From Thermodesulfovibrionales bacterium (GTDB lineage: Bacteria > Nitrospirota > Thermodesulfovibrionia > Thermodesulfovibrionales > Dissulfurispiraceae): a stretch of 38,559 nucleotides of DNA. The notes beneath the pieces are model-generated. The model saw nothing but the letters and a program-made list of their open reading frames with translations. It was not told the DNA's origin and searched no databases. Within the stretch, counting starts at the first letter, position 1, and every line of letters begins with the position of its first letter. The position numbers were made by a program, and so were the translations under genes. Shown here in pieces: positions 11,119-16,181 of this stretch. The stretch covers positions 1 through 38,559 of the forward strand of contig JAOAGP010000050.1 in assembly GCA_026415695.1 (NCBI GenBank), read 5' to 3'.

Positions 11119-11445
11119 TTATTTCTTCTCTTCTTTCTTCTCTTCTTTCTTCTCTTCCTTCTTCTCAGCCTTTTCAGCCTTCTTCTCGCCCTTCTTTTCG
11201 CCCTTCTTCTCGGCCTTCTTCTCAGCTTTTTCAGCCTTTTCAGCCTTCTTCTCAGCCTTCTTTTCAGCCTTCTCAGCCTTCTTCTCAGCCTTCTCTGCCT
11301 TCTTCTCTTCCTTCTTCTCAGCCTTGTCAGCCTTTGGTGCATCAGCCTTTGGAGCGTCAGCCTTTGGTGCATCAGCTGCAATTGCTACTGAAGTAAGTGA
11401 AAATGCAAACAAGAGAGCTACTACGATTGCTAACATCTTCTTCAT
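11119..11445 (-). CDS. Secreted Lys/Glu/Ala-repeat low-complexity protein
   Basis: 108 residues. Residues 1-23 form a clear Sec signal peptide (KKM, then a hydrophobic core ending SVAIA), so the product is exported. The mature part is entirely repetitive: three APKAD units (residues 26-40), then alternating KAEKKAEK units, and KEEK units to the C-terminus. It should be a highly charged single alpha-helix or disordered chain with no catalytic domain. Its function is unknown; envelope spacing, surface or polyanion binding are only guesses. Expression looks strong: an AGGAGG ribosome-binding site, its own promoter candidate and its own terminator make it a monocistronic unit. A coding origin is supported by the signal peptide; the opposite-strand open frame here is a by-product of the repeats. 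Confidence 0.75.
   Translation of the reverse strand: MKKMLAIVVALLFAFSLTSVAIAADAPKADAPKADAPKADKAEKKEEKKAEKAEKKAEKAEKKAEKKAEKAEKAEKKAEKKGEKKGEKKAEKAEKKEEKKEEKKEEKK
11122..11376. repeat. Short tandem repeats and homopyrimidine tract
   Basis: DNA counterpart of the protein repeats: imperfect units of about 9-15 bases built from CTTCTTCTC, CAGCC and TTTT blocks on the plus strand. Positions 11122-11166 are 45 uninterrupted pyrimidines on the plus strand (purines on the coding strand). Such tracts are prone to slippage and can form triplex structures. Confidence 0.7.
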
Positions 11446-11606: not shown

Positions 11607-12992
11607 TTAAGGAGTAGTTGCCTCATTTGAGGATGGAGGGATAGAGATGTCGTATTTTTCTAATCTGTATCTAAATGTTTTATCTGTCATACCAAGTAAC
11701 CTTGCCGCCTTTGCCACCACACAGTTGCTTTTTATCAAAGCCTGCCGTATTAATTGTTTCTCTAATTCCTCAAAAACAATACCTTTTGAGGGAAGGTGAA
11801 ACTCAAAATCCTGTCTTGTATATTCAGACTTTAGTTCGTCTTTTATGTCTGCAGGCATTATAAATTCCGAATCGCTCATTAATACTGCCCTCTCCATGAT
11901 AAATTCTAATTGTCTAATGTTACCGGGCCAATTGTACGATTGCATCAATTTAACAGTCTCATTAGATAATCCCTTGATTGACTTTCCAAACTCTTTGTTG
12001 TATTTGTTTATAAAGTAATTTGCAAGTAGCGGTATGTCTTCAATCCTATCCCTTAAAGGAGGTAACTCTATCGTCACTACACGCAATCTGTAATACAAAT
12101 CCTCCCTAAACCTTCCCTGCGCAACCTCTTTCGATAAGTCCTTGTTTGTCGCTGCGATAATCCTGTTGTCAACCTTTATAGTGTCTTTACCTCCAAGTCT
12201 CCGTATCTCTTTGTCCTGGAGAACCCTTAATAGTTTAGCCTGTACAAGCATAGGCATATCACCTATTTCGTCAAGAAACAAGGTCCCTTTATCCGATGAC
12301 TCAAATAAACCAATCTTTCTGTAGTTAGCCCCAGTAAATGCACCGGCTTCATATCCAAAAAGTTCACTTTCAATGAGGTTTTCTGGTATTGCTGAGCAGT
12401 TTAAGGCGACAAAAGGACCTTTAGCCCTTGGACTATTGTAATGAATTGCCTTTGCTATGAGTTCCTTACCTGTGCCACTTTCACCGTAGATCAATACTGT
12501 CACATTTGTTGGGGCAGCCTTTTTGGCTATCTCAACTACATAGTTCATCTTCTTTGAATGTCCTACGATACCATCTATCCTAAAACGCTCTATTAGAGCC
12601 TCTTTGAGTTTGATGTTTTCTTTTAGTAACTGCATCCTCTCAACTGCCTTTTTTACAGTCAATACAAGGCTGTCTTTATCAAGAGGCTTTGTAAGATAGT
12701 CAAATGCCCCTTTTTTCATCGCCTCAACAGCCGTGCTAACAGTGCCAAAAGCCGTCATTATGATTACAACAGGGCTCAGTTCGTCCTTCTGGACTTTATC
12801 CAATATTTCAAGTCCGCTTGATTTACCCATCTTTAGGTCTGTTATAACAACATCTGGAAGTATCTTGTTTATGAGCACAAGACACTCATCTACTGATCCT
12901 GCAGTATAGACCTCATATCCTTCATCAATCAATATCTCTTTTATAATCTCTCTTTGTGGTTTCTCATCATCTGCAATTACTACAACCGCCAT
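11607..12992 (-). CDS. NtrC-family sigma54-dependent response regulator
   Basis: 461 residues in three parts. The N-terminal receiver has acidic DD at 8-9, phospho-acceptor Asp52 (TDLKMG) and Lys102. The AAA+ sigma54-activator domain has Walker A GESGTGKE at 170-177, the sigma54-contacting loop GAFTGA at 217-222, Walker B TLFLDEIGDM from 237, and PPLRDRIEDI near 311. The C-terminus is a Fis-type helix-turn-helix with AKAARLLGMTDKTFRYRL. All residues needed for phosphorylation, ATP hydrolysis and sigma54 contact are present, so it should be an active enhancer-binding protein. It follows its kinase gene by 13 bases. Target genes are not shown by the sequence. Confidence 0.95.
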   Translation of the reverse strand: MAVVVIADDEKPQREIIKEILIDEGYEVYTAGSVDECLVLINKILPDVVITDLKMGKSSGLEILDKVQKDELSPVVIIMTAFGTVSTAVEAMKKGAFDYLTKPLDKDSLVLTVKKAVERMQLLKENIKLKEALIERFRIDGIVGHSKKMNYVVEIAKKAAPTNVTVLIYGESGTGKELIAKAIHYNSPRAKGPFVALNCSAIPENLIESELFGYEAGAFTGANYRKIGLFESSDKGTLFLDEIGDMPMLVQAKLLRVLQDKEIRRLGGKDTIKVDNRIIAATNKDLSKEVAQGRFREDLYYRLRVVTIELPPLRDRIEDIPLLANYFINKYNKEFGKSIKGLSNETVKLMQSYNWPGNIRQLEFIMERAVLMSDSEFIMPADIKDELKSEYTRQDFEFHLPSKGIVFEELEKQLIRQALIKSNCVVAKAARLLGMTDKTFRYRLEKYDISIPPSSNEATTP

Positions 12993-14597: not shown

Positions 14598-16181
14598 TTA
14601 TCTTGAGCTGTCTAAAAGTATCTTCTTTGCAGATACAAAAAACAACAATCTCTTTAGGTCAAGCAGGTTGTATTGAAACTCATCGTATTGATAATATTCC
14701 CTTAAGCCAACCAACATAGTATTGTCGTAAATGGGAAGTTCATATTTTCTTATGATTGCATCGGCTATGATCTCAATATCCTGTCTTCTTTCCCTTAAAG
14801 GTGGTATGTGAATGATGTGTGGGTTAATTGCCTTAAGTAACAACTCCGAGATCCTCGATTTGTCCTCTGGGGCGGTTCTTGATGTCAGGTAAAATCTACA
14901 ATCAAATCTTGTGGGCTTCATCTCTCCTAATTTGTAGAAAAAACCATCCTTTATCACCCTTGCTATCTTGTTTTGTAAGTCAATAGGCATCTTGTCAATG
15001 TTTTTAAGCAGCACTGTGCCACCTTCTTTAGCAATGTCAAACGCACCCCTAATCTTCTGAAAACCAAAAAATCCGCCTTTGCTCCCAAAAAACTCAACCT
15101 CAAAGTTGTCATTACTGATTCCACTACAATAAATAGAAACCAAGGGTTTTTGTCTGTTTGGATTGTCTTCTCTTTGATGCACAGAGGCGAGTAAAAGCCT
15201 CTTGCCCACATCTGCCTCTCCCCAGATAAAAAGGTTTCTCCCTTGACTATTAGCCACATAAAATTGATTTAGATTGTTATTAAACGATTCATCAGTGGTA
15301 GTAAACCTCAAACTACCATGTCTGTATCTTTGGGCATATTCAATCATGTCCTCAAAAAGACTACCTTGACCAAAATACCTGCCTTCAGACTCAAACTGCA
15401 TGATAATATCACATAGGAATTCTTCGTATTCGTTCTCAGGTATTGAATAGTATTTTTTCATGTTTTCCTTGCATCTTTCTTGTGCCTCAATAACCTGTGG
15501 AAACAAGATATTTTGACTGGCCAATACAGCAATCTCCATGACCTTAAACAGTTGAAATGCCATATAGTTATCAGAAAATAACATAGGGTGGTCAAATTCC
15601 TCTAATCTCTTTCCAGTATTACTATAAACCAACCCAACCATAGAGCAGGTGGTATGAAACAAAGAGGGCATATTAGTTATCTTTTGGATCTCTGTGATGT
15701 GATTTGTCTTAAAAAGCCTTTCTTGTATGAAAATACTATCCTCTAATGGAATCTTAAGAAGTAAAGGCAAAAGTCTTTTTATGTGAGGATGTTTTTGATA
15801 CATTATAAGATAGCCTAAGACAGGCAACTGTGAAGATATTATTACATGCTCCTCTTCTGCTATATTGGCTCTCTTGTTTAGGTTTATCGCCGATACCTTT
15901 AACATCATCGCAAATGCCCAAAGAGGATATGTATCTTCCTCCAATATGCAGTCAAAACCCTCAATAAGTGAGACAAGTCCGCGTTCACCTATGAGAGAAA
16001 TAGTGGGATGAATCAAGGTGAAATCCTTCTGTGGATATCTCTCCTTTACACTGCATAACAAACTAAACATCAAACCAGTGTCAGAAAGAACAAGATGAGT
16101 AATATCGGCAAATGACATTTTTTGCCCGATAATAGTGTCCTTTAAAAGACCAAAAGTATGGCGAAAGACTGGGAATATCAT
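14598..16181 (-). CDS. HDOD-like / degenerate sigma54-activator ATPase fusion protein
   Basis: 527 residues, soluble. Residues 1-200 look like an HDOD region (FPVFRHTFGLL, SFADITHLVLSDTGLMFSLL, then HPTISLIGERGLVSLI), a fold used in signalling output scaffolds. Residues 290-510 align by eye with the sigma54-activator AAA+ domain, but key residues are changed. Walker A is GEADVGKR (321-328) rather than GESGTGKE; the sigma54 loop GAFTGA is replaced by GGFFGF (369-374); Walker B reads LLKNIDKM (391-398) rather than FLDEIGDM. PPLRERRQDIE (460-470) is well kept. There is no Fis-type helix-turn-helix at the C-terminus. It is therefore unlikely to activate sigma54 directly and may be a regulatory partner of the two-component pair that follows. 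Weak ribosome-binding site. Confidence 0.6.
   Translation of the reverse strand: MIFPVFRHTFGLLKDTIIGQKMSFADITHLVLSDTGLMFSLLCSVKERYPQKDFTLIHPTISLIGERGLVSLIEGFDCILEEDTYPLWAFAMMLKVSAINLNKRANIAEEEHVIISSQLPVLGYLIMYQKHPHIKRLLPLLLKIPLEDSIFIQERLFKTNHITEIQKITNMPSLFHTTCSMVGLVYSNTGKRLEEFDHPMLFSDNYMAFQLFKVMEIAVLASQNILFPQVIEAQERCKENMKKYYSIPENEYEEFLCDIIMQFESEGRYFGQGSLFEDMIEYAQRYRHGSLRFTTTDESFNNNLNQFYVANSQGRNLFIWGEADVGKRLLLASVHQREDNPNRQKPLVSIYCSGISNDNFEVEFFGSKGGFFGFQKIRGAFDIAKEGGTVLLKNIDKMPIDLQNKIARVIKDGFFYKLGEMKPTRFDCRFYLTSRTAPEDKSRISELLLKAINPHIIHIPPLRERRQDIEIIADAIIRKYELPIYDNTMLVGLREYYQYDEFQYNLLDLKRLLFFVSAKKILLDSSR

Follow-up and report, generated by a model that had tools for sequence, protein, structure and literature searches.

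The window analyzed here, i.e. the whole stretch of 38,559 nucleotides from a Thermodesulfovibrionales bacterium, encodes a 527-residue protein (14598..16181, minus strand; coordinates and strand have been confirmed) in which an HDOD domain (residues ~1–258) is fused to an AAA+ domain (residues ~289–524) derived from the sigma54 activators (bEBPs). Comparison of the family with canonical bEBPs shows that residues needed for ATP hydrolysis and sigma54 contact have been lost, while the P-loop glycines and lysine are retained and several new basic residues have become fixed. We propose, with a probability of roughly 0.45, that this protein is a non-hydrolyzing, probably Mg-independent switch which binds an anion or a nucleotide and is coupled to its HDOD domain.

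Domain architecture

The HDOD domain, with its C-terminal helices, spans residues 1–258 (15408..16181, minus strand). In a Pfam search, the window protein alone gave no match to PF08668 (HDOD), but this family was matched by 25 of 26 orthologues (best E-value 1.7e-17). A family profile compared with the PDB likewise retrieved the HDOD structures 3p3q (1.5e-6), 1vqr (4.5e-6) and 3hc1 (1.7e-4). In an AlphaFold2 model of the window protein, built with 26 family sequences as input (pLDDT 88.5), residues 1–258 align with MmoQ (3p3q; VIA Z 19.6, 235 residues, 3.4 Å) and residues 1–261 with Cj0248 (1vqr; Z 17.2). The window protein thus has in common with MmoQ, Cj0248, GsmR and SadB the HDOD fold and a presumed regulatory role. 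HDOD domains are related to HD-GYP but lack catalytic activity; their function is unsettled and often tied to motility, and c-di-GMP binding has been reported for one HDOD protein, SadB (PMC6543031, PMC11004494).

The AAA+ domain, including its lid, covers residues 289–524 (14610..15317, minus strand). Sigma54_activat (PF00158) was matched at residues 296–437 of the window protein (4.2e-20) and in 26/26 orthologues. The best structural match of this domain is FleQ (5exs), to whose AAA+ domain residues 289–523 of the model align with a VIA Z of 22.8 (229 residues, 2.4 Å). A second AlphaFold2 model, for which the query was an orthologue from Thermodesulfovibrio sharing 30% identity with the window protein (pLDDT 88.6), agrees with the first and again gave a bEBP fold (FleQ, Z 24.6) together with HDOD (MmoQ, Z 18.7). 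The sequence-only reading had proposed both an HDOD-like N-terminal region and a C-terminal AAA+ domain of the sigma54-activator type, and had suggested structure prediction as a check; both folds were found. Overall, the window protein shares with the AAA+ domains of NtrC1, PspF, FleQ and LuxO the fold including the lid, the GxxxxGK motif, the PPLRER segment and the order of the elements. Unlike these bEBPs, it carries HDOD as its N-terminal domain.

A uniformly rewritten ATPase pocket

The motifs of 40 family members were compared with those of 12 canonical bEBPs from the window genome and related genomes; all coordinates in this section are on the minus strand. The P-loop, GEADVGKR (residues 321–328, 15198..15221), had been described as a lost Walker A motif. 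This proved to be wrong, as the sequence fits GxxxxGK, both glycines being present in 40/40 members and the lysine in 39/40. Only the bEBP-specific glutamate which follows the lysine has changed, to an arginine (R328) in all 40 members, while the controls have Glu at this position (GESGTGKE), except for one with Gly. The proposed replacement of Walker B by LLKNIDKM (residues 391–398, 14988..15011) was borne out: the catalytic aspartate, present in 12/12 controls, is Lys in 39 of the 40 members and Thr in the remaining one, and the adjacent glutamate position is occupied by Asp, Glu, Asn, Gln or Lys. The substitutions extend to the Asn switch (PspF N64), which is Phe, His or Tyr in 39/40 members, and to the sensor I asparagine, which is Arg, Lys or Gln in all 40, Arg or Lys in most. 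In the trans-acting RxDxxxR motif, the remnant of FRxDLYYRL reads ISELLLKAI in the window protein (residues 444–452, 14826..14852) and the equivalents of R162 and R168 are both gone in 40/40.

The GAFTGA loop is the part of bEBPs which contacts sigma54. As had been noticed, it is replaced by GGFFGF in the window protein (residues 369–374, 15060..15077). The threonine is missing in 40/40 members and the loop is shorter by 2–3 residues, with a conserved Gly-aromatic-x-Gly core retained in most. Sensor II is represented by NLLDLKRLL (residues 505–513, 14643..14669), in which N505, L506 and L509 are found in 40/40 members; Arg at position 507 is present in only 21/40 and is Leu in the window protein. 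Compared with NtrC1, PspF, FleQ and LuxO, the family therefore lacks the GAFTGA threonine, RxDxxxR and the Fis helix-turn-helix (HTH), and has Lys and Arg in place of the Walker B Asp and of the Glu following the P-loop Lys.

The protein ends ~14 residues beyond sensor II. Pfam found neither HTH_8 nor any other HTH in the window protein, and none is seen in the family alignment, which ends after sensor II, while a neighboring regulator (11607–12992), used as a positive control, gave full matches to Sigma54_activat, the lid, a receiver domain and HTH_8. The absence of a Fis HTH was thus correctly recognized from the sequence. This feature makes it very unlikely that the protein is a sigma70-type transcription regulator resembling TyrR, DhaR, HupR or VpsR, despite these being bEBP homologues with a defective GAFTGA (PMC3162934).

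In PspF, E43, N64, D107, E108, R162, D164 and R168 each matter for ATPase activity (PMC3419264); all or most family members have other residues at the equivalent positions. By homology, the altered side chains are inferred to face the pocket. The summed charge at five pocket positions ranges from +2 to +5 in the 40 members vs -2/-1 in the 12 controls, and the rewriting of the pocket is uniform, not random. These losses support the earlier view of a regulatory pseudo-activator of unusual HDOD–AAA+ architecture, unable to act as a normal sigma54 activator.

Two readings of such a domain differ from a ligand-binding switch. In the first one, the pseudo-AAA+ domain would join the hexameric rings of an intact sigma54 activator as a poison or spacer subunit in order to block or tune it, the HDOD domain setting the timing. 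Consistent with this, the AAA+ fold is fully kept in both models, removal of R162, D164 or R168 makes PspF constitutively hexameric (PMC3419264), and mixed bEBP rings are known or proposed for HrpR/HrpS, FleQ/FleT and VnfA1/VnfA3 (PMC9542535). Possible partners exist, with at least 14 other such AAA+ domains in the window genome and sigma54 in nearly all genomes. However, sigma54 being found in 28 of the 31 genomes of the window's family, its presence does not discriminate between readings. Moreover, no activator is a conserved neighbor of the gene, and the L1 and Walker regions follow a conserved consensus of their own instead of a bEBP-like surface. We consider this reading the main rival of the switch, though the less probable of the two. 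In the second one, the AAA+ half would be a pure scaffold, i.e. a folded domain with an empty pocket that serves HDOD as an adaptor or spacer. Many pseudoenzymes work as scaffolds, and all catalytic functions have been lost here. Nevertheless, GxxxxGK and precisely these new basic residues are fixed over two families, although a mere spacer would have no need of them, making this third-ranked alternative unlikely.

Distribution and selection

Full-length orthologues are present in 40 of the 176 genomes of the order, namely 24 of the 31 genomes of the window's family (f1) and 16 Thermodesulfovibrio genomes (genus g25, family f10), with one copy per genome among carriers. A first scan of genome contigs with the window protein alone as query gave no match, and an alignment scan returned, among the matches listed, one full-length relative, from Thermodesulfovibrio sp. 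N1. Within its own genome the window protein is unique, the 14 or more other matches being ordinary bEBP AAA+ domains. Across 396 genomes sampled from the phylum, a clean gap separates orthologues (E < 1e-175) from generic bEBPs (E ~1e-51, matching the C-terminal half only), and no orthologue was found in this sample beyond the 40 carriers of the order.

None of the 40 members contains an internal stop and the substitutions recur throughout, so the open reading frame is not simply misread. Among the closest pairs, dN/dS is 0.03–0.2 in both domains, and mean identity within f1 is higher in the AAA+ half (0.55) than in the HDOD half (0.47). Collectively, these values exclude decay and indicate that the AAA+ half matters. 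The loss of catalytic motifs could by itself have suggested the decaying pseudogene of a normal activator, but the selection data, the intact frames and the shared replacements across the family refute this idea, whose probability is close to nil. Likewise, the substitutions reflect more than chance, since both families share them as fixed changes and strong purifying selection acts on the gene.

The gene is nevertheless dispensable in some lineages: in at least two genomes (G012 and G013) it has been lost with the flanking genes retained, and no clear remnant was found in the gap. Its absence from G005 and G006 is probably due to missing sequence, as mnmG, its usual neighbor, is missing there too. 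An unrelated open reading frame with an apparent P-loop (MRRVGKTT) occupies the corresponding mnmG/LPG_synthase_TM interval of G013 (L219:4876-6057).

A link to flagella was also considered and is not supported (Fisher p 0.07). Three genomes, G011, G012 and G013, have neither FliM nor FlhA, but of these G011 keeps the HDOD–AAA+ gene and only the other two lack it; several flagellate genomes are also devoid of it. G011 is estimated to be 100% complete and its congener G022 has FliM as well as FlhA, which points to flagellar loss within the genus.

Proposed function and relation to known systems

In the proposed switch, the basic AAA+ pocket, deprived of the Mg2+-binding aspartate, would hold an anionic ligand. 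This could be ATP or ADP, with no Mg2+ turnover, or a different nucleotide, either phosphorylated or cyclic. Occupancy by the ligand would shift the AAA+ lid or the interface with HDOD, and the HDOD domain would relay the ligand state by protein–protein contact, with neither DNA binding through a Fis HTH nor remodeling of sigma54-RNA polymerase. Some points weigh against this proposal. The retained P-loop lysine could be structural, Lys393 may merely pair with adjacent acidic residues, and the gene has been lost in G012 and G013. The more specific version, that a bEBP ATPase pocket has been converted, in this lineage, into an Mg2+-independent sensor of a phosphorylated or cyclic nucleotide which is read out via HDOD and not via DNA, is put forward tentatively, as a possibility less probable than the switch itself.

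Homologues of bEBPs with a defective GAFTGA are not unusual, ~110 having been counted in a 2011 survey, with TyrR, DhaR, HupR, VpsR and YplP as examples (PMC3162934). Like the window family, these five proteins contain an AAA+ domain which derives from bEBPs but has ceased to be suited to sigma54. They are, however, DNA-binding regulators, whereas the window protein has no HTH, has a rewritten pocket and should not hydrolyze ATP. While the component domains are known, the combination of HDOD with a dead bEBP AAA+ domain appears to be new within the open-access literature, in which no description of an HDOD–bEBP fusion was found. Among the HDOD proteins in the literature examined, none contains a bEBP AAA+ domain, and SadB combines HDOD with a YbaK-like domain.

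The AAA+ domains of bEBPs are transcription motors. If the proposal is correct, they have been reused outside transcription. A conserved family which lacks both a DNA-binding domain and the hydrolysis residues, and which combines a uniformly rewritten, basic pocket with HDOD, would then clearly exemplify a pseudo-ATPase that has taken on a new role, and could help in approaching the unsettled function of the widespread HDOD domain.

Genomic neighborhood and putative promoter

In the window, 146 bp separate the gene from a histidine kinase gene downstream on the same strand, which is followed by an AtoC-like regulator. This arrangement had led to the suggestion that the protein antagonizes or scaffolds the kinase/regulator pair encoded downstream, and conservation of this linkage had been proposed as a check. 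Of the 31 f1 genomes, 26 have the kinase orthologue, but it adjoins the HDOD–AAA+ gene in the window only. The remaining 25 show no such linkage, and >100 kb separate both genes in G007, whose genome is a single contig. The usual neighbors are instead mnmG and envelope-glycan genes. The suggestion is thus not supported, and we regard such a role as highly improbable.

In 35 of the 38 carriers whose neighborhood was examined, the gene is divergent from mnmG, at a distance of 22–150 bp. In 33 of these 35 carriers, it is also tail to tail with an LPG_synthase_TM-like gene, beyond which lie a GT2 glycosyltransferase gene and, in most of them, a gene for a PMT/PAP2 protein. A functional dependence of mnmG or of the glycan genes on the HDOD–AAA+ gene is unlikely, G012 and G013 retaining these neighbors without it. 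The mnmG linkage is absent from the window and from both other genomes of its genus, the gene having a different location in each of these three. In one related genome (G001, L118:8285-13605), it has moved beside a receiver–SpoIIE–HATPase protein and genes which are fliL- and fliM-like by sequence.

A conserved, symmetric -10-like element (TATTATA; TGnTATAAT or TATAAT on the other strand) is present in the mnmG/HDOD–AAA+ spacer at L120:9590-9612 and in 36 other carriers. Outside the window's genus, all 37 carriers have TATTAT 7–13 nt before the start codon and TATAAT on the opposite strand, and in the 21/21 f1 carriers among them the mnmG side forms an extended -10, TGnTATAAT. The element leaves almost no leader on either side. 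This spacer is likely a bidirectional promoter giving near-leaderless mRNAs. Pseudo-symmetrical bidirectional promoters have been described for E. coli (PMC12825309), and the spacer, judged by its sequence pattern, fits that description. Expression in most carriers would then probably be tied to that of mnmG, i.e. be roughly constitutive. In the window, the relocated gene no longer has this element, and operon signals searched for in the window, i.e. promoter- and terminator-like sites, occurred at about the level of shuffled sequence.

Elsewhere in the window, positions 11119–11445 (minus strand) encode a small protein that looks exported, in which Lys/Ala/Glu repeats (KAEKKAEKK...) of histone-H1-like composition come after a signal-like N-terminus, the plus strand of the same segment carrying a Leu-rich, spurious open reading frame.
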